Shown here piece after piece: positions 6,025 to 23,975 of a DNA stretch of 30,731 nt. The stretch is taken from positions 1 to 30,731 of the IMG/VR virus record IMGVR_UViG_3300046504_000166; one strand, given 5' to 3'. The DNA is from a virus. Position numbers and translations under genes: made by a program. How positions within the stretch are numbered: the first letter of the stretch is position 1; each line of letters starts with the position of its first letter. Under the pieces are notes generated by a model. It ran no database searches and had not been told where the DNA came from. It saw only the letters and a program-made list of their open reading frames with translations.

Positions 6025-8175
6025 ATGAATACATCAGAACGCATTCAACTAATTACCGGAGTAACTGGAAATGATAAAACCATCATAGTAAAACTTGAAC
6101 AAGACGTTGAGCAACTTCAATTTATGACATTGAACATCTATACTAAAGATGCTTATCAGGATTTTAATGCAGACTATGGTGTATTAATTGGCAGAGTAAC
6201 AGCAAATGGTGGTGTAGGCATTCCTAATGCCAAGATCAGTATTTTTATACCCTTAGATAATGTTGATGCCCAAGATGGCGAAATATCAAGCATTTATCCT
6301 TATGTAACTCCAAGAGATAAAAATGCACAAGGCAAAAGATATAATTTATTGCCACGTGTTAGTCAATATAATTTCACAACAGGAACTTATAAACCAATTC
6401 AACCATTTGGTAGTTTTCCAATTAAACCAGAAATAGTTGCCAATCAGGACTTCTTAGGTGTTTATAAAAAATATTATAAATATACTGCATTAACCAATAG
6501 TGCTGGGGATTATATGATTTTTGGCGTACCGATTGGTACACAAACAGTTCATATGAGTGCTGATATTACCGATATTGGTCAATATAGCATGACTCCGGCT
6601 TCAATGGTAACAAATTTAGGATATTCACCAAATTTATTTTATGACAATAATTCCAAAATCAAGCCAAGTAATGATTTAAATGACTTGCCAAATATTGAAA
6701 CCCAAGAAATTACCGTTGATGTTGTCCCATTTTGGGGTGATGCAGCCAATTTTATAATTGGTATTACCCGCCAAGATTTTAGAATTCGTGCAACATTGGT
6801 AAATACCTTTACCATTTTTGGGAGTTCATTCACCGATGGTAGTGATGCTATGTGGGGTGAAGACACTGAAAGTGGAAGAAATGTTGATGAATTATATCGT
6901 GCAAGAGACGATGCGAATACTACAGTCGGAATGTTTTCAAAACGTATTGGAATTATAAGTGAACAGATTTACTATTATCCAGCAAGTATTAGTGATGCTG
7001 ATATTGATAGTGGCAATGTTGATCCAACTACTGATATGTTGTTATTGGCAAAAACAGAATATTCTGCATATAAAAGGGATGGTGATTTTGTGCTTTTAAT
7101 ATCTTGTAACAGAAATAAGGTTATTACAGATGACCAAGGCAATCAAATGCCAGTACCCTATACTTCTACAAACGGTATTTTCACAGAATTTCGAGGATTT
7201 GTAGTATTTGAAATTGATGGTCAAGCCATTCCGATGAATTTTAGTGGTAGTATTGGAGATAACACCACATTAACACCAATTAGAATGAAGTTAAAGTTTC
7301 CACAATATGCACCAATGGCACATAGTTTTGGAGTAACACATTCGGGTACTCCTGATCCAAATACACCAAATACTATTACATGGAGAAAACAAAATTATAG
7401 ATTTCAAGCAAACAAGTTTTATAGTGTTTCAAGATTTCAACCAATAGTATTTCATAGTTCAACAGGCGATGATAATAACGATACTACTCAGTTCTTTGAT
7501 AAAGATGCAATAAATGTACCGTATAATCAAGACCCATTTTGGTCTTCTGGTATTATTGTTACAAGTGATTATAGTGATTTTACAAACTCTACCGCACAAT
7601 TTCCAACCAATGTTCAGTTAGCAAGTGGTTTAAAGGGTTTTGGTTCAAACTGGATGAATTTAAGTATATATTTTCCACAAACAGGTTATTTAGGCAGAGG
7701 TTATTCTCATGTTAATTATGTTAGGTCGGCAACATTGGTCCAATTTCAATTTGCAAGTGGTGCTGGTGGTAGTGATGCGCATAATAACTGGTATTATTTC
7801 ACAAACAATACTCAAGCAATTGCAGGTGGTCAATTCAATACCATTTGGATGGCTCGTTCTGACCAGCATTGGACTGATTTTATTGAAGTGCCAACTAAGG
7901 ATATTAAAGCAATGGTAACTGTTACAAGCAAAGGATTTACCAATAATCAATTGGGCAGTTATACATTACAAGGTAAATATCGTAATGGAATTTATAAACC
8001 TACAGGTTGGTCACAACCTACACCATTTGCATATGATGGAAACGGTACTTATCCAATATCGGGTAAAATAGACGGAAAGCCTACAAATGGTCAAGACCCC
8101 AACAGTTATTTCTATAAAGGATTTAATACTTCTGATTGTATTAAATTTTTATTTGAATTAGGATTAATATTATAA
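6025..8175 (+). CDS. Large probable virion protein with a carboxypeptidase-regulatory-like domain
   Basis: A 716-residue protein. Residues about 50-180 read like a transthyretin/CarboxypepD-regulatory beta sandwich split by an insert: GVLIGRVTANGGVGIPNAKI at one end, then TALTNSAGDYMIFGVPIGTQ. The rest is Asn/Thr/Tyr-rich beta-type sequence without catalytic motifs, and there is no signal peptide. The late box, the divergent pairing with the sheath gene and the size argue for a tail, baseplate or adsorption component. Such sandwich domains are common in phage tail proteins and in Bacteroidota surface proteins, so glycan or receptor contact is possible; that is inference. The gene ends at a strong terminator shared with the lipoprotein gene. 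A baseplate wedge or fibre role cannot be separated from sequence alone. Confidence 0.8.
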   Translation: MNTSERIQLITGVTGNDKTIIVKLEQDVEQLQFMTLNIYTKDAYQDFNADYGVLIGRVTANGGVGIPNAKISIFIPLDNVDAQDGEISSIYPYVTPRDKNAQGKRYNLLPRVSQYNFTTGTYKPIQPFGSFPIKPEIVANQDFLGVYKKYYKYTALTNSAGDYMIFGVPIGTQTVHMSADITDIGQYSMTPASMVTNLGYSPNLFYDNNSKIKPSNDLNDLPNIETQEITVDVVPFWGDAANFIIGITRQDFRIRATLVNTFTIFGSSFTDGSDAMWGEDTESGRNVDELYRARDDANTTVGMFSKRIGIISEQIYYYPASISDADIDSGNVDPTTDMLLLAKTEYSAYKRDGDFVLLISCNRNKVITDDQGNQMPVPYTSTNGIFTEFRGFVVFEIDGQAIPMNFSGSIGDNTTLTPIRMKLKFPQYAPMAHSFGVTHSGTPDPNTPNTITWRKQNYRFQANKFYSVSRFQPIVFHSSTGDDNNDTTQFFDKDAINVPYNQDPFWSSGIIVTSDYSDFTNSTAQFPTNVQLASGLKGFGSNWMNLSIYFPQTGYLGRGYSHVNYVRSATLVQFQFASGAGGSDAHNNWYYFTNNTQAIAGGQFNTIWMARSDQHWTDFIEVPTKDIKAMVTVTSKGFTNNQLGSYTLQGKYRNGIYKPTGWSQPTPFAYDGNGTYPISGKIDGKPTNGQDPNSYFYKGFNTSDCIKFLFELGLIL

Positions 8176-8180
8176 AACAA

Positions 8181-8205
8181 AAAACCCCTCAAATTGAGGG
8201 GTTTT
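8181..8205. terminator. Bidirectional terminator between convergent genes
   Basis: A perfect 10-bp stem, AAAACCCCTC (8181-8190) and GAGGGGTTTT (8196-8205), with a 5-nt loop. The A/T ends make it work in both directions. It separates the 716-residue protein gene from the convergent lipoprotein gene. Confidence 0.9.
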
Positions 8206-8208
8206 AAG

Positions 8209-8679
8209 TTATCTCGTTAAGGTGTAAGTTCCACCAATCGGCATATCAGTATTTCCTTTAGTCATTTTTAATACTAAGTTAGTAGTAGTATAAGAAATTA
8301 TTTGGAATTTAAGATAGCCACTATCAATGTCAAGTACATCACCTGATATGGAATAGGTAAATGATACCGAACTCCAATTAGCATTATTATTAATATCGTC
8401 ATTAGCAATGCTACCAGTGTAATTTGTGTGAAGAACTACATTTGTACCAGTAAATGTAAAATCAAGACTTACAAAGTCTTTGGTTTTGTTCAAATCACAA
8501 AAATCGTCAATGGTAGACCAATGAGTTTGACTACCAAAAGCATAATCAAGAGATACACAAGTCCATTTAGCACCATTCAAATCGGTGGGAATAAGACCAT
8601 CATCAGTAGGTTTCGTGCAATTGGTATTCATAAGTACCATTGCAAACATCAAAGAAAATAAACAAATCAAATTTTTCAT
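8209..8679 (-). CDS. Phage-encoded lipoprotein, lipocalin-like beta protein
   Basis: A 156-residue predicted lipoprotein. From ATG at 8679 the N terminus is MKNLICLFSLMFAMVLMNTN followed by Cys21: a Lys, a 15-residue hydrophobic core and a lipid-attachable Cys. Asn at -1 is unusual for a strict lipobox. The longer frame reaching 8748 would bury this signal, so I reject it. The mature part (LNGAKWTCVSLDY, then alternating strands ending GGTYTLTR) resembles the small beta-barrel lipoproteins common in Bacteroidota. Inserted on the opposite strand between two virion-type genes, with a terminator and no late box, it looks like a moron gene expressed separately. Exclusion of superinfecting phage or a host surface change is possible but unproven. 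Confidence 0.82.
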   Translation of the reverse strand: MKNLICLFSLMFAMVLMNTNCTKPTDDGLIPTDLNGAKWTCVSLDYAFGSQTHWSTIDDFCDLNKTKDFVSLDFTFTGTNVVLHTNYTGSIANDDINNNANWSSVSFTYSISGDVLDIDSGYLKFQIISYTTTNLVLKMTKGNTDMPIGGTYTLTR

Positions 8680-8772
8680 AATTACAAGTTTTAAGTTAAA
8701 CATTATACCCATTATACGTATGCATTTTCTAAATGTTACATAAAACATGACTTTTTTTAAAAAAATTTTCAG

Positions 8773-8782
8773 GGTATTTATA
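8773..8782 (+). promoter_or_regulatory. Late box upstream of the 397-residue virion-type gene
   Basis: GGTATTTATA, only 4 bases before the ATG at 8787. If transcription starts 5-7 bases past the box, as for typical -10 elements, the message would begin at or near the start codon. Confidence 0.6.
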
Positions 8783-8786
8783 TTAT

Positions 8787-9980
8787 ATGGACGAAAAACT
8801 ACAAATATTACTTAACAGCAAGAAGAATATTGCTTCGGTTGATCAAGACAACTATCAAAAGTTAGAATTAGAGAATAAAGTCGGACAAATCATTGAATAT
8901 GATATTAGAAATGCTCTTAGTGCTACTGAAATATTTGATGCTGAACGAGAGGCAAATCCCATATATAGAATCTATGGCAGAATCGAATATCTATCACTTT
9001 TAAATGGACTTAGCAATAATTATAATAATGTCGGTAATTTCTTTATAAGTACAGGTGGAACAAATGTCAAAACCATTTTTAATTCATTTAAATTTTATCT
9101 TCTCAAGGCAGCAAGCAGTGGTTATACGCATATAACAGGTGGAAGCAGTACCATTAATTATGTCAGGTATTTTGAAGTAATTGCCGGACCTTCAGATTTT
9201 GAACTGTATAATGCCGGATATTCTAATAATGTCTACGGTGAACAAACATATGCGTTTAATTTTAACAAAGACTTCGATATTACTCCATATACTGATGCCT
9301 TTGGATTTCCGGCAACAGAATTATATTTGTATCCGCAATATCAAGTAGGAAAAAATGGAAATTCTCCACAAATACCTGAAACAATGTCAGGTACTTCTTG
9401 GGGAACAAACGGTATTCAGCATAAAGTATTATTTACTTCGCCATTGCCAACACTGAATATTGGTGATAGGGTTTATGGTGATTTAATTGAATATGCCAAA
9501 TCAGAATTTTTTCAAAATCAATTAACACCACAAACATATTATATATCAACGGCATATAAAGACGGAAGCACTCAAAAGTACTTGCAATGGAAATACAATC
9601 CATTTATTCCATTTATTCTAAGATATTTTAATGATGCACTGAATAATGTAAATACTGGAACTACTTCATACGGACAACAAATATCAATACCATATTATGC
9701 AACATTGTTAACGGGTGGAACTGTTGGCAATGGTAACTATGTGTGGAAAGATATTTTGCCACAAGGATTTATTGATCCTGTAACAAATCAAGGTGTTGAT
9801 TATCCTTTTGTAAATATGAGAAGATATTTATTTTCACCAATAATTCTTGATATATCTCCAAATCTCCAAGATAGTAATACTTTGCAAGTATTTACTCAGA
9901 TACAATTCGGTCCACCAACAATAATGAATACTGCACCACAGGCAGATAATTTAGGTAATATAGGAAAGCCATGTCAATAA
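8787..9980 (+). CDS. Probable virion protein, 397 residues
   Basis: Unrecognised 397-residue protein with late-gene control. A charged helical N terminus (KKNIASVDQDNYQKLELENK) leads to a long Tyr/Asn/Phe-rich beta-type body, for example PIYRIYGRIEYLSLL and ATELYLYPQYQVG. Near the end is NMRRYLFSPIILDISPNLQD. There is no signal peptide, membrane segment or enzyme motif. It overlaps the next gene by 10 bp, and the two share composition and style, so they are probably translated together and may form one sub-assembly of the tail or baseplate. The ATG lies very close to the late box, and no other nearby in-frame ATG competes with it. Confidence 0.75.
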   Translation: MDEKLQILLNSKKNIASVDQDNYQKLELENKVGQIIEYDIRNALSATEIFDAEREANPIYRIYGRIEYLSLLNGLSNNYNNVGNFFISTGGTNVKTIFNSFKFYLLKAASSGYTHITGGSSTINYVRYFEVIAGPSDFELYNAGYSNNVYGEQTYAFNFNKDFDITPYTDAFGFPATELYLYPQYQVGKNGNSPQIPETMSGTSWGTNGIQHKVLFTSPLPTLNIGDRVYGDLIEYAKSEFFQNQLTPQTYYISTAYKDGSTQKYLQWKYNPFIPFILRYFNDALNNVNTGTTSYGQQISIPYYATLLTGGTVGNGNYVWKDILPQGFIDPVTNQGVDYPFVNMRRYLFSPIILDISPNLQDSNTLQVFTQIQFGPPTIMNTAPQADNLGNIGKPCQ

Positions 9981-10825
9981 TCAAAGAAAAAATAAAATAC
10001 TTAATTGTTCCCACAGGTACAACTCAGATTAGAGTTTCTGGTCACACCACTACGGGATATACAGGTATTGTAAATATAAAATTTAATTTGGGTTCAAATG
10101 ATAATTTTTTAGGTTATCAGCAAGAAATTGACGATCTAACACAAGGTGTTTCCGATACTTTGATTAATCCAGATGTTGATCTTGAAGAACGTAGATTTAA
10201 ATATGCCTTTCATTCTCCTGCAGTTCAATTTAATTTTGGATTTGGCAGTCCGACACCAAGTAATGCATTTACTGCAGCAGGTTTTACACCTACTGAATTA
10301 GCACAACAACAACTCGATGTATTAAATAGTTTTTTTATTTTTGATTTATACGATAGTTATAATGTCAGTACTCAGGTAAAAATTCTAACAACATATATTA
10401 CTAAAATTGGCAATAGTCCTCAATATACACTTGATTCAAACAATCAAATCTATAATTTATACGTGCCAATACCATACATACAAGATATACAAGCACAAAG
10501 TGGTTCAACAGGAATAGCAACAGGATATACTAAAATTAGTTTCTACAATGCAAAAACTGGTAAGGTTACATTATTTTATAATCCAACTTACGCATTGAGT
10601 ACAACACCATTATTCATGTTCTTTCCGACAAGACTGAATGTTAATTTAAAAACTTGGGAATTTTTACCTTCGTCAACATCAGTATTTCAGGCAAATGAAA
10701 TATATCAAAACCAAGAATATATTACTAAGGTTAATGATACTGTTCAGAATTTTAACAATGAATCACAGAATTATCCAAGTGGCAGTACATTTAACTATCA
10801 GACAGGTAAATATTTTGGTGCTTAA
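9971..10825 (+). CDS. Probable virion protein, 284 residues
   Basis: Unrecognised 284-residue protein starting inside the last codons of the upstream gene (10-bp overlap), a sign of translational coupling. The N terminus, KYLIVPTGTTQIRVSGHTTT, then VNIKFNLGSNDNFLGYQQEI, suggests a beta-sandwich fold. The middle contains FNFGFGSPTPSNAF and a helix ELAQQQLDVLNSFF. The end, NNESQNYPSGSTFNYQTGKY, is Asn/Ser/Tyr-rich, as in phage tail proteins. No catalytic motif was seen. It is the last gene of the late unit that starts at 8787. Its stop codon and that of the convergent endonuclease gene share the palindrome TTAA at 10822-10825, and no hairpin terminator separates them. Confidence 0.75.
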   Translation: MSIIKEKIKYLIVPTGTTQIRVSGHTTTGYTGIVNIKFNLGSNDNFLGYQQEIDDLTQGVSDTLINPDVDLEERRFKYAFHSPAVQFNFGFGSPTPSNAFTAAGFTPTELAQQQLDVLNSFFIFDLYDSYNVSTQVKILTTYITKIGNSPQYTLDSNNQIYNLYVPIPYIQDIQAQSGSTGIATGYTKISFYNAKTGKVTLFYNPTYALSTTPLFMFFPTRLNVNLKTWEFLPSSTSVFQANEIYQNQEYITKVNDTVQNFNNESQNYPSGSTFNYQTGKYFGA

Positions 10826-11319
10826 TTATTAAATTTGTTTAAATATTTTATATATTCGTCTTTATATTTTTCATAAAAGCCAATGCCATAATTACACGGA
10901 TCACAAAGTAAACCACGAATTTGTCCCGTTTTATGATCATGGTCAACACAAAATATTTTACCATATTCATCCATATCTCTATGACAAATGGCACAACAAT
11001 TATTTTGTTCATTTAATTTTGCGTAAAATTCTTCAGGCGTTATACCATATTTTACTTTCCAATTAGTTGCTCTGGTTTTTTCGGGATATTTTTTTCGATA
11101 TTCACGAGCATATTTAACACGTTTTGCTTTATGTACTTGATATCTTTCTTTATCATATGCTCTTTGAGCATCCTTATTTTCTTGTCTATAATTCTTCTTA
11201 ATTTCACTTCTACAAGAACGACATGTTCTTAAAGTTTTTCCTTTCTCTTTTTTTCCGTTATAGAAATTAGAAATATCCTTTGAATTACCGCATATTTTGC
11301 ATATTCTTATTTCTTCCAT
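10822..11319 (-). CDS. Endonuclease VII-like HNH (His-Me finger) nuclease
   Basis: A 165-residue protein with the recombination endonuclease VII pattern. It has zinc Cys pairs at 109/112 (CAIC) and 139/142 (CDPC) flanking the His-Me core FCVDHDHKTGQIRGLLC, with DHDH at 126-129, then NYGIGFY. An extra N-terminal zinc knuckle has C7/C10 and C33/C36. T4 gp49 (157 residues) is the family model: it resolves Holliday junctions and branches during DNA packaging. The late box 41 bases upstream supports such a late role. However, many endonuclease VII-like proteins with an added N-terminal Cys knuckle are free-standing homing-type HNH enzymes, so the two possibilities stay open. It is convergent with the 284-residue gene, sharing TTAA. 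Confidence 0.85.
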   Translation of the reverse strand: MEEIRICKICGNSKDISNFYNGKKEKGKTLRTCRSCRSEIKKNYRQENKDAQRAYDKERYQVHKAKRVKYAREYRKKYPEKTRATNWKVKYGITPEEFYAKLNEQNNCCAICHRDMDEYGKIFCVDHDHKTGQIRGLLCDPCNYGIGFYEKYKDEYIKYLNKFNN

Positions 11320-11360
11320 AATTATGTAGTATTACGTTTTATTCTAAATGTTATAGTAAA

Positions 11361-11370
11361 TATAAATACT
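11361..11370 (-). promoter_or_regulatory. Late box upstream of endonuclease VII-like gene
   Basis: Minus-strand AGTATTTATA, 41 bases before the ATG at 11319. It overlaps the last bases of the methyltransferase stop codon, so the two genes can be controlled separately. Confidence 0.7.
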
Positions 11371-12247
11371 ACCTCAATGAGGAAAAGATAAAACTAATTA
11401 CATCGCATGTCCAACCATTGCCTAACATTTTATACCTTGCACCATCACTGACTATTGAAGTATAATCATCAGGAACTGTTTGCAGTCTTTCATATTCCCG
11501 TGGCGTGAGTTTACGAACTCTGAAATTCAATCCCCAATTACCAATTTGTTGGCTTTGTAACACCTTTTTTTGTTGATTACCACCGCATACTGCAGTCAAT
11601 GTTTGGCATTTATGCATTGATGAATTAACTCTTTTGAGTATATCGTGACCATTTATGTGTAATGTCGCACAAACCACTTTATCAAATCCATGAAAATCAT
11701 GTGACTCTTGATAAAAATACTTTTCATCTACATCTTGTTCAAGAATATCACCAAGTAATAAAGGGTTACTCAATGGTAAGTTACCAATTGGTATGTTGGT
11801 CCAATAAAGTCTTGATCGTGTCTGTGCAGAAAATAAATCTGAATTAATAAGAACTGGCAGAACTCCAATATGATCTGTTATTACATTTTTCCATTCGTCT
11901 TTCATTACCACATTTTCTAAAAGAAAATACTTTGGTTGGCATTCTTCTAATAAACGTAAGTATTCAAAAAATAATTTGGATTTACCGTCAAAACCAGTAT
12001 TAGAGTTTATCGTATAAGTGAATGATTGACAAGGACTTCCACCAATAAGCAGATCAATTTGTGGCAGGTCTGATCCTTTGATCTGGCAAATATCTCCGAG
12101 TTGTATTGTCTTAGGGTAGTTGTATTGTGTAACCTTTATAGCATTTGGCTCTATTTCAGAAGCATAATACTTATCATATTTAATGCCTGCCTTATTAAGT
12201 GCAATTTGTCCACAGGACATGCCATCGAAAAGTGACAATACATTCAT
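11369..12247 (-). CDS. DNA (cytosine-5-)-methyltransferase
   Basis: A 292-residue enzyme that moves a methyl group from S-adenosylmethionine to C5 of cytosine in DNA. Motif I is LSLFDGMSCGQ (residues 4-14), motif IV GGSPCQSF with catalytic Cys73, motif VI ENV at 111-113, motif VIII QTRSRLYW at 142-149, motif IX RKLTPREYERLQ at 245-256 and motif X GNGW at 276-279. All catalytic parts are present. The target recognition region between VIII and IX is short (about 95 residues). No restriction enzyme partner is visible, so it is an orphan that likely protects phage DNA from host restriction or marks it. A host-type promoter, not a late box, lies just upstream. Confidence 0.93.
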   Translation of the reverse strand: MNVLSLFDGMSCGQIALNKAGIKYDKYYASEIEPNAIKVTQYNYPKTIQLGDICQIKGSDLPQIDLLIGGSPCQSFTYTINSNTGFDGKSKLFFEYLRLLEECQPKYFLLENVVMKDEWKNVITDHIGVLPVLINSDLFSAQTRSRLYWTNIPIGNLPLSNPLLLGDILEQDVDEKYFYQESHDFHGFDKVVCATLHINGHDILKRVNSSMHKCQTLTAVCGGNQQKKVLQSQQIGNWGLNFRVRKLTPREYERLQTVPDDYTSIVSDGARYKMLGNGWTCDVISFIFSSLR

Positions 12248-12251
12248 AGTA

Positions 12252-12281
12252 CAAATGTAGCATTATTTATTTAACAACAAT
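12252..12281 (-). promoter_or_regulatory. Candidate host-type promoter for the methyltransferase gene
   Basis: On the minus strand, ATTG, an 18-nt spacer, then TACATTTG (12259 down to 12252), with the ATG only 4 bases further on. The spacer is one base shorter than the usual 19-21, and the message would be leaderless. Confidence 0.4.
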
Positions 12282-13031
12282 ACCAATTTTTACTTTTCTC
12301 ATTGCTTTCACAATTTCGAATTCTTTTTCATCCTGTATAAAGCCTAAAATTTTCAAAGCATATTTACTAACGAAGAACCTGTCACCATCAATATTTTCGA
12401 TAGGATTGGCTTCGGCAAAACCTTCAAAAGTCAAAGGCATTGGCGAACCCTTAATGAATACATATGCCTGACGACTTGCAAAGTTTTTAAGTACTTGTTC
12501 ATCATATTGATTAACGTCAACCCTGTACTTAGTAAAAAGTGTTGCTTCGTATGTCAGGTCAACATTAGTTGGTTCAGGCATTTTAAATAATAAATTAATT
12601 ACTTCACCTGCATCTAAAATAGGAACTGTAAAATATCTGAATTTGCGTGGTTGCGGTATACGGTATTTTGTACCAAGTCTTGTACCAGGTTGTTTATCAA
12701 TACGTCTGACTGTAATATATGGTGTTGGTACGTTCTTATCATTATCCATGAACTTCCATGTCTTTGAAAATTCTCCCCAACGGTCATTATCAAGATAAAA
12801 AGTCGGAACTAATTTATTTTCAATGACTGCCTTCATTCCATCTTGATTCACGTAGTCAAAAAGTATTTGATCAATATCTTCTAATAAAATAGTTCTTGGA
12901 AGATACTTGGTTCTTTCATCTGTGGCAAGCATCAGTTGTTCAATTCGATCAAAACCATATTTAAGATACTCACATCCGGGTTTAGGCGGATTAGTGTCAA
13001 TTGTATATTTTATTTTCTTCGGTAATGACAT
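12267..13031 (-). CDS. Probable structural protein, possibly tail/neck completion
   Basis: A 254-residue protein, not firmly recognised. Visible blocks are GFDRIEQLMLATDERTKYLP, ILLEDIDQILFDYV, then a beta-rich part with VPTPYITVRRIDKQPG, FRYFTVPILDAGEVINLLF and QAYVFIKGSPMPLTFEGF. The last third ends KMRKVKIGIVVK after a predicted helix. A strong late box 14 bases before its ATG places it among virion genes. Size and soluble, mixed alpha/beta style would fit a connector or tail-completion protein such as T4 gp15 or gp3, but no motif proves it. It is followed on the same strand, after 19 bases, by the methyltransferase, which appears to have its own promoter overlapping this gene's end. Confidence 0.75.
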   Translation of the reverse strand: MSLPKKIKYTIDTNPPKPGCEYLKYGFDRIEQLMLATDERTKYLPRTILLEDIDQILFDYVNQDGMKAVIENKLVPTFYLDNDRWGEFSKTWKFMDNDKNVPTPYITVRRIDKQPGTRLGTKYRIPQPRKFRYFTVPILDAGEVINLLFKMPEPTNVDLTYEATLFTKYRVDVNQYDEQVLKNFASRQAYVFIKGSPMPLTFEGFAEANPIENIDGDRFFVSKYALKILGFIQDEKEFEIVKAMRKVKIGIVVK

Positions 13032-23142: not shown

Positions 23143-23574
23143 AATATTGGTGTTTCCCCCGAATGAACCGCCTGTATTGGCAACTTGTTGACCATTTATT
23201 TTATCTTGAACAAGCACTTGGAGAGTACCTGTCAATGTACCAATTGAAGTATTAATCTTAATGAGTTCTTGAGAAGTCATAGTATTTTGTTCTTTTTGTG
23301 CTTGGAACATTTCTTGATAATGACTTTCAGTTGAACTAACCTTGGGTACTACGACAAGTTGATAAAAACCATAGAATAGTCCTAACATTGCTCCAATAAA
23401 AGCAAAGAATGTTTTTATTGTAAATACTATTTGTGTGCTTCCACTAATTTGTTTTAGTCCCATTGTCTTAATTTTCCTATTTTTCCATTTATTTTTCGCC
23501 CATTCATTTATCCCTATAATATCGAGAACTTTTCCAAGAAATTTTGATATTAATTGTATCCATGTTTGTATCAT
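23068..23574 (-). CDS. Membrane protein with Gly/Asn-rich tail, 168 residues
   Basis: A 168-residue protein. It has an amphipathic N-terminal segment (WIQLISKFLGKVLDIIGINE), a basic stretch (KNKWKNRKIK), one membrane helix at about 52-77 (TIKTFFAFIGAMLGLFYGFY and following), a charged helical part (SSTESHYQEMFQAQKEQN) and a low-complexity Gly/Asn tail. It starts inside the upstream exported-protein gene (71-bp overlap) and its end overlaps the convergent operon by 75 bp. The neighbour's late box should drive both. Membrane protein plus exported partner in overlapping late genes recalls phage lysis cassettes (holin or spanin), but no family match supports this firmly. An internal ATG at 23463 would avoid the upstream overlap. 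Confidence 0.72.
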   Translation of the reverse strand: MIQTWIQLISKFLGKVLDIIGINEWAKNKWKNRKIKTMGLKQISGSTQIVFTIKTFFAFIGAMLGLFYGFYQLVVVPKVSSTESHYQEMFQAQKEQNTMTSQELIKINTSIGTLTGTLQVLVQDKINGQQVANTGGSFGGNTNILPVGGNNALNGTPVNGVVTNNGGH

Positions 23575-23956
23575 ATCTATAAACGATTGTTGGTTCTGTA
23601 TTAATTATTGCTATAAATCCGTCCGGAGATTGTTCACGTGTTACTTCCAAAGTATCAATAAATACTTTTGCACCATAAATCCATGTTTTAGTTAATTTAC
23701 CTTCATAAATGCTATTGCTTTGCAACACTAATTCATATCGATATTTTGCTGAATTAGTAATGGCTTTTTCATTAGTATATGTCAGAATTTTTTGTTTTGT
23801 AACATATGATGAAATACTGATTTTGTTTGCAGGAGATACTTCTTTATTCCATGTTCCAAAATCTTCTACTTTACTTTTACTAACTGATTGAGCATTTAAT
23901 GCCAAAATTGAAGCAAACATCAAAACTATAAAAAATAAAGGTCTAAATTTGTTCAT
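23504..23956 (-). CDS. Exported late protein with signal peptide, 150 residues
   Basis: A 150-residue protein with a clear signal peptide: basic start MNKFR, a hydrophobic core (PLFFIVLMFASILAL) and a likely cleavage after NA at residue 22 (LNA|QS), the NAQ ending so common in Bacteroidota exported proteins. No lipobox Cys. The mature part (VEDFGTWNKEVSPANKISIS, then KYRYELVLQSNSIYEGKLTK, ending WKSSRYYRDK) looks like a small beta protein. I chose ATG at 23956 over an in-frame TTG at 23974. A late box sits 19 bases upstream. Periplasmic role, perhaps in lysis or envelope disruption, is inferred from export and late timing only. Confidence 0.8.
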   Translation of the reverse strand: MNKFRPLFFIVLMFASILALNAQSVSKSKVEDFGTWNKEVSPANKISISSYVTKQKILTYTNEKAITNSAKYRYELVLQSNSIYEGKLTKTWIYGAKVFIDTLEVTREQSPDGFIAIINTEPTIVYRYDTNMDTINIKISWKSSRYYRDK

Positions 23957-23975
23957 TATATAATAATATTTCAAC

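Follow-up and report, generated by a model that had tools for sequence, protein, structure and literature searches.

Gene content and transcription signals of the locus

The window analyzed here is a 30.7-kb virus record taken at its full length, in which genes for the tail sheath, tail tube, major head protein and head protease are recognized by PHROGs. Between two late-type genes of this record, named A and B, lies a slot occupied by a small gene on the opposite strand, LIP. The slot and its borders comprise the following features.

6025-8175, plus strand: gene A, late-type, with a conserved N-terminal part and a hypervariable C-terminal part
6025-6804, plus strand: N-terminal part of A (residues about 1-260), which tracks the phage backbone by per-block identity and distance tests
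6817-8175, plus strand: C-terminal part of A (A_C, residues 265-716), a putative attachment or adhesin part that co-varies with the LIP ectodomain
8181-8205, no strand assigned: hairpin resembling a terminator, where the convergent genes A and LIP meet, from the hairpin scan and relatives
8209-8616, minus strand: mature domain of LIP with stop codon, a predicted lipocalin-like barrel (model and fold) that appears exchangeable (exchange tests)
8617-8679, minus strand: LIP signal peptide and lipobox cysteine, conserved and backbone-linked
8701-8707, minus strand: second TATAATG copy of the first-pass annotation, by eye not kept in relatives
8711-8740, minus strand: LIP promoter TGTAAC-N16-CGTATAAT, of a phage-wide and probably early class
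8774-8781, plus strand: late box GTATTTAT of gene B
8787-9980, plus strand: gene B, 397 aa, late-type, the right-hand border of the slot

The LIP reading frame is real. It encodes 156 amino acids from a minus-strand ATG at 8679 to a stop codon at 8209-8211, which bears out the first-pass annotation of an opposite-strand lipoprotein with a signal peptide between two late-type genes. A start at 8748 given by the ORF list (179 amino acids) was rejected because relatives begin at the MKK methionine that corresponds to 8679. The leader consists of the signal peptide MKNLICLFSLMFAMVLMNTNC followed by TKPTDD, and residue -1 of the lipobox is Asn, which is unusual by E. coli rules. A signal peptide and lipobox cysteine are predicted in 39/39 of the loci that carry the gene, a count to be read with the fact that the cysteine leader partly defined the carrier search. 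In one carrier, L196, no ATG was seen at the start.

Gene A is conserved up to about residue 260, with a mean pairwise identity of 0.53-0.83 per 40-residue block over residues 1-280, and is hypervariable beyond. The AF2 model of A is mostly confident over residues 257-716 with no clear fold match found; the fold search gave only low-scoring pilin-like matches with a best Z of 4.5, most of them falling in residues 48-260. No PHROG matched A, Pfam gave only a weak CarboxypepD_reg hit (E 0.005, below cut-off), BFVD held one match at E <= 0.001 (A0A8S5LA66), and a search of 50,697 phage records with A and B found nothing. By virtue of its position, late box and conserved-N/variable-C pattern, A is a putative attachment protein. 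Elsewhere in the window, an HNH-like ORF (by eye) and a C-5 cytosine methylase gene lie between C and D254 (10822-12247), the methylase being matched only in L003, L022/L023 and their overlapping loci L082/L085. A minus-strand ORF at 1095-1760, homing endonuclease-like by eye, sits between the exonuclease and tail tube genes, and a second ORF with a signal-peptide-like start and no clear family is found near the major head protein gene (23504-23974, minus strand).

The hairpin at 8181-8205 has 11 pairs and a T tail. Across the whole window the hairpin scan did no better than with shuffles (2 found, shuffle mean 2.2); among relatives, a hairpin beside the A stop codon is present in 34/38 minus-strand carriers against 0/23 empty junctions, and shuffled copies show one in 1% of cases. 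The element had been described as a strong bidirectional terminator; the hairpin stands, while bidirectionality is plausible only, since the scan reported it on the minus strand alone. The window contains 14 copies of the late box GTATTTAT where 3.7 are expected, a count that 0/100 shuffles reach, and by eye 11/14 copies lie a short way ahead of a listed start codon on their own strand, including those of the sheath, A, B and D254. The late box restarting at B was thus correctly identified, and its G/C-TATTTAT form is found upstream of B in 38/38 minus-strand carriers and 17/23 empties. The companion claim that LIP has no late box holds only for the word itself: no GTATTTAT was found on LIP's strand between LIP and B, but B's late box, taken as its reverse complement, gives TATAAATA there (8775-8782), which is the T4 late promoter word, so LIP could also be transcribed late.

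Two TATAATG copies had been pointed out upstream of LIP. Both exist, at 8701-8707 and 8710-8716, but the word is not enriched in the window (16 versus 12.4 expected), and the second copy is, by eye, not conserved in the upstream sequences of relatives. The motif TGTAAC-N16-CGTATAAT at 8711-8740 on the minus strand gave one match in the window search and none in 100 shuffles. Upstream of LIP in the 38 minus-strand carriers, a looser form of the motif is present in 30/38 and the strict form in 13/38.

The strict motif was found in 11/14 related records searched, with at most 30 sites in each and none for a reversed-pattern control. Four of these records, G002-G005 (299-340 kb; the records behind L020, L028, L039 and L058), hold 28, 30, 12 and 29 strict sites, respectively. 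The LIP promoter is isolated in G003 and G004, where 157 and 178 kb of the linear record separate it from the closest further strict site. The form TGTAAC-N(about 16-17)-CGTATAAT is seen genome-wide, often in tandem before small ORFs (G002-G005; L130-L135). In six regions chosen for being rich in sites, an ORF of at least 45 amino acids starts within 250 nt of 49/54 sites (median 26 nt), with some tandem sites sharing one ORF. Seven ORFs downstream of promoter sites, chosen by eye, were scanned for families: one matches RIIA (E 4e-61), one RIIB (8e-32), one a Nudix and one a helicase family, two fall in families whose function is for the most part unknown, and one matches nothing. RII genes are early in T4, and since the class precedes rIIA- and rIIB-like genes it is called probably early; it might serve to mark early genes in this phage group. 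Because its promoter belongs to this phage-wide class, LIP would be part of the phage's own, probably early, program, a timing read from promoter class only and with the T4-late-like word on the same strand. The proposal that LIP is expressed apart from the phage program is therefore not supported. The moron layout proposed with it survives in a promoter and terminator of its own, as predicted from sequence, its opposite strand and its absence from close relatives, but not in its independence.

The A-B slot in related phages

A search of IMG/VR with LIP's own peptides gave seven candidates, of which none was confirmed, and relatives were therefore reached through A (best 80 of 111 loci), B (8 loci) and D254 (64 loci), making 153 sequences with the window. 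The D254 search was added because the A-search loci lean to A alleles like that of the window; D254 is a conserved neighbor that selects for neither A nor LIP alleles. A closed A gene and a B gene were present in 131/153 loci, with the remaining 22 lacking usable A and B. The 131 loci reduce to 65 distinct junctions and to 64 after removal of L068, in which A is frameshifted and the junction equals that of L012.

A lipoprotein is found in 39/64 distinct A-B junctions, in a sample that includes the best 80 of 111 A loci. Carriers fall into 24 of type 1, 10 of type 3 and 5 of type 2, while 23/64 junctions are empty (gap under 60 bp). The two others are a relic resembling type 2 with its promoter retained (L024) and a different secreted protein behind a LIP-class promoter (L054). 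In the latter, the slot holds a 174-aa ORF with a signal-peptide-like start (12276-12797, minus strand). At least four carriers (L039, L055, L064 and L070) have extra ORFs in the slot. The L193 slot contains a type 3-like lipoprotein on the plus strand, the sole such case of 39. In L028, the type 1 gene (12211-12954, minus strand) has an extra stretch between the leader and the lipocalin-like domain, with a weak PKD-like match there.

Closely related phages differ in occupancy. By sheath, the closest relative is L007 (82% identity); its junction is empty, at 37-41 bp depending on which of two measurements is used, and the first 72 residues of its B are 85% identical to those of the window. L004 and L005 form a close pair, one filled and one empty, with B genes 92% identical, and the empty L034 and the type 1 carrier L035 have 85% of A_C in common. 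On quick trees, presence of the lipoprotein requires 9 changes on the sheath versus 13 on A_C. Some relatives thus have the block while close ones lack it, which agrees with the moron reading of the first-pass annotation. LIP is a presence/absence module, yet one that recurs in a fixed slot. With the type 1 model, no second copy was found elsewhere in a set of 20 records that includes many fragments. By eye, a type 1-like lipoprotein also occupies the slot of L201, a contig assigned by binning to a Bacteroidota MAG; the binning is weak evidence for a Bacteroidota host.

Lipoprotein types and their co-variation with gene A

The AF2 model of the window LIP (pLDDT 80, pTM 0.71) is a lipocalin-like barrel. 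Its best fold match is 4qrl of Bacteroides uniformis (Z 9.4, 91 aligned, 3.0 A), followed by 5byp of Bacteroides (Z 8.7), potempin E (Z 7.8) and a surface glycan-binding protein (Z 7.5); Foldseek against the PDB gave no match at E <= 0.001. In Pfam, Lipocalin_4 (PF13648) scores 12.4 bits for the window LIP, under the 22.4 cut-off. The same family matches 5/17 type 1 members at E <= 0.1 (best E 2e-4) and, weakly, the type 3 members L064 and L053, with L064 at 22.2 bits versus the 22.4 cut-off. No PHROG at E <= 1 and no match at E <= 1 in 50,697 phage records was found for the window LIP. The fold class of the ectodomain is thus lipocalin-like by prediction.

The types go back to a first set of 27 carriers among 49 junctions, in which the mature domains form three BLAST clusters. 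A scheme of three unrelated ectodomain families was dropped, as a match between L071 and L191 (E 6e-4) joins types 1 and 3. Since both also resemble Lipocalin_4, the two are regarded as lineages that share one fold. In profile comparison, types 1 and 3 aligned over 57 columns and types 1 and 2 over 30, hardly beyond the leader, with a longer stretch of 99 columns for types 3 and 2. New carriers were typed from best hits, except L070, which had grouped with type 3 in the first BLAST clustering, and L193, which had no match; both were placed by judgment.

The Bacteroidetes lipoprotein surface export signal is C-X-K-(D/E)2-X according to PMC5080379. LIP sequences resemble it: Lys follows at +3 after the cysteine in 31/39 carriers, and at least two acidic residues lie at +4 to +8 in 29/39. 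The window LIP itself, with CTKPTDD, has K at +3 and D-D at +6/+7 and is a weaker match. LIP is probably an outer-membrane lipoprotein, presumably facing the surface, and the surface role suggested earlier appears to fit the lipobox and the Lys at +3.

Distances among mature LIP domains follow those among A_C. With the near copies L052, L080 and L089 left out of the distance tests (though kept among the 64 junctions), the Mantel r is 0.545 (n=36), a value that 0/1999 permutations equal. It persists in partial tests given the sheath (0.530), B (0.537), the A N-terminus (0.511) or D254 (0.616, n=29). Across the 36 carriers, raw correlations of mature LIP are 0.119 with B and 0.015 with D254; those with the sheath (0.166, 1/1999) and the A N-terminus (0.222, 0/1999) are weak but above chance. 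Given A_C, mature LIP correlates at 0.073 with the sheath and 0.043 with B. In the same set, signal-peptide distances track the A N-terminus, B and D254, with an r of 0.569 for the A N-terminus and -0.164 for A_C given the A N-terminus.

In the first set of 27 carriers, mature LIP correlates with A_C at 0.645 (0.622 given the sheath), with the sheath at 0.271 (0.170 given A_C) and with the A N-terminus at 0.325. The 11 carriers new since that test give 0.662 for A_C, with partials of 0.60-0.67 (0.602 given the sheath), and a signal peptide correlation with A_C of 0.513 that becomes 0.062 given the A N-terminus. Type 1 alone gives 0.350 (n=22). In a genome profile of 26 carriers, the mature LIP correlation climbs at A residue ~241-281 (0.42-0.57), continues at 0.43-0.61 to the end of A and is 0.04-0.29 over B. 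On quick trees of 53 rows, the distinction between types 1 and 3 (28 rows) takes 1 change on A_C and 2 on the A N-terminus versus 7 on D254 and 5 each on the sheath and B. Agreement of type between nearest neighbors, out of 36, is 27 for A_C, 25 for the A N-terminus, 22 for the sheath and 20 for B against 15.8 expected, a milder contrast than that of the distance correlations.

At the DNA level, L014 and L017 are 98% identical over the signal peptide and 89% upstream but 53% over the mature part, where shuffles average 57% and reach 60% at most. L035 and L159 are likewise 97%, 90% and 59% identical. Taken with the distance tests, these near-identical leaders on shuffle-like mature DNA show that leader and ectodomain differ in history, the ectodomain for the most part sharing the history of A's C-terminal part. 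The coupling is usual but has exceptions: the A_C tree places L014, of type 1, and L017, of type 2, as starred sisters, and type 2 is present in both A_C clades. The A and LIP 3' ends usually lie 30-65 bp apart. None of nine pairs had a dN/dS value above 1. A slot filled in 39/64 junctions and an ectodomain that changes with its neighbor's C-terminus both go beyond the first-pass annotation. In the titles and opening abstracts searched, a scope with most subscription journals outside it, a co-varying lipoprotein of this kind was not described.

Candidate functions and comparison with known systems

The preferred reading, a tentative one on which we are close to evenly divided, is that LIP, a lipoprotein of Bacteroidota-type phages, acts like Llp in exclusion or in masking of the receptor and is matched to the attachment allele of A. 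An early-class phage promoter would drive LIP although the gene sits in the late structural region. The leader (promoter, signal peptide and sorting residues) would be a conserved part of the phage backbone, while the lipocalin-like ectodomain would be exchanged, usually jointly with the hypervariable C-terminal half of A. On the host surface early in infection, LIP may bind or mask the receptor of the matching A allele and thereby block re-infection by phages sharing the attachment type. After lysis, it could spare progeny from loss on debris, the part that Llp plays for pb5/FhuA in T5. We infer the early timing of LIP, A as the attachment protein, the surface side and exclusion itself; the reason for proposing exclusion has become more specific with the co-variation of the ectodomain and A_C. 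Adjacency, probable early expression, a predicted lipid anchor and co-variation would all fit a T5-like model. The same kind of gene in 39/41 non-empty junctions argues for a functional tie, short of proof. Against exclusion, A_C alleles are similar with and without LIP (L034/L035, 85%).

Since the variable parts of A and LIP adjoin, physical linkage provides the main rival. LIP would then be hitch-hiking cargo, a surface lipoprotein whose function, for instance ligand binding, protease inhibition or protection of the infected cell, has no relation to A, and would track A_C merely as a neighbor between two conserved homology arms. This has a substantial, if minority, share of our credence. Consistent with it are the contiguity of the A C-terminus and the LIP ectodomain, the similar A alleles without LIP (L034/L035; L004/L005), the different LIP types in the A_C sisters L014/L017, and potempin E and the glycan-binding protein as fold neighbors. 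Linkage alone, however, gives no reason for a location at gene A or for one kind of gene in nearly all non-empty junctions, and the type 1 model has no second copy in the 20 largely fragmentary records. Capture of a host gene that keeps a host-type promoter and acts independently of the phage program, the classical moron, is improbable even with the opposite strand, own promoter and hairpin, and presence/absence in its favor, for the promoter is of the phage's own genome-wide class and many lineages have kept the leader and the slot. This conservation suggests that any capture is old; the source of the ectodomain could nevertheless be a host.

Tail-fiber chaperones are exchanged together with the fiber tip, and co-variation with the distal part of an adjoining putative attachment protein would also be expected if LIP were a folding or assembly partner of A. 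Such a helper is distinctly improbable: the signal peptide and lipobox would direct LIP out of the cytoplasm, where virions are assembled, 23/64 junctions keep A without LIP, and the gene has an opposite strand and a phage-wide non-late promoter class. LIP is a small phage lipoprotein, as is an outer-membrane spanin, but a lysis role is very hard to credit given the lipocalin-like barrel of the model, the phage-wide promoter class, A and B as flanks, and absence from 23/64 junctions.

A bolder extension of the preferred exclusion reading, which we consider rather unlikely as it stands, is a polymorphic self-recognition system in giant phages, in which a constant leader and recombined ectodomains, usually paired with a cognate tip, would tag the cell against phages sharing that tip. 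If so, exclusion groups would be legible from sequence, as in polymorphic toxin-immunity or conjugal entry-exclusion pairs. This one slot offers dozens of natural variants whose outer domain tracks the neighbor's variable half more closely than it does the remaining genome. If A is an attachment protein, the matching of exclusion to attachment specificity becomes directly testable, and the variants would offer a way towards the receptors that uncultured giant phages of the Bacteroidota type use.

To our knowledge, exclusion lipoproteins are known from few cultured phages. According to PMC9586334, the gene for the T5 exclusion lipoprotein Llp directly follows that for the receptor-binding protein pb5, and exclusion proteins, which many phages make early, prevent re-infection and adsorption to debris. 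Llp (beside pb5/oad) and Cor of T1-like phages resemble LIP as small lipoproteins adjoining an attachment gene, which for LIP is putative. Llp acts at the periplasmic face of FhuA, whereas LIP has an export-signal-like N-terminus. LIP further differs from Llp and Cor in its larger, lipocalin-like domain, in lying on the strand opposite A and in having several exchangeable ectodomain types; PHROG and phage-record searches, on which the sequence comparison is based, gave it no described phage family. Ltp of Streptococcus phage TP-J34 is described in PMC3952083 as a surface-exposed exclusion lipoprotein that is spread by exchange and likened to morons. LIP is similarly a phage lipoprotein spread by exchange, for which exclusion and the surface side are inferred. 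Ltp differs in being from a Gram-positive system, belonging to a lysogeny module, being expressed from the prophage and blocking DNA injection (PMC3952083). The Pfam listing for LIP includes no Ltp-type family. Bacteroidota lipocalin-like lipoproteins (Lipocalin_4, PF13648; 4qrl, 5byp) share their fold with the LIP model, although the window LIP is below the profile cut-off (12.4 versus 22.4 bits). LIP may work like an exclusion lipoprotein but is placed in no described family, and it is set apart by its modular architecture, a backbone-linked leader with a neighbor-tracking ectodomain. In cassettes of a tail-fiber tip and its chaperone, a variable attachment tip is likewise exchanged with its neighbor between conserved bounds; in the LIP slot, the partner is a predicted secreted lipoprotein rather than a cytoplasmic chaperone.
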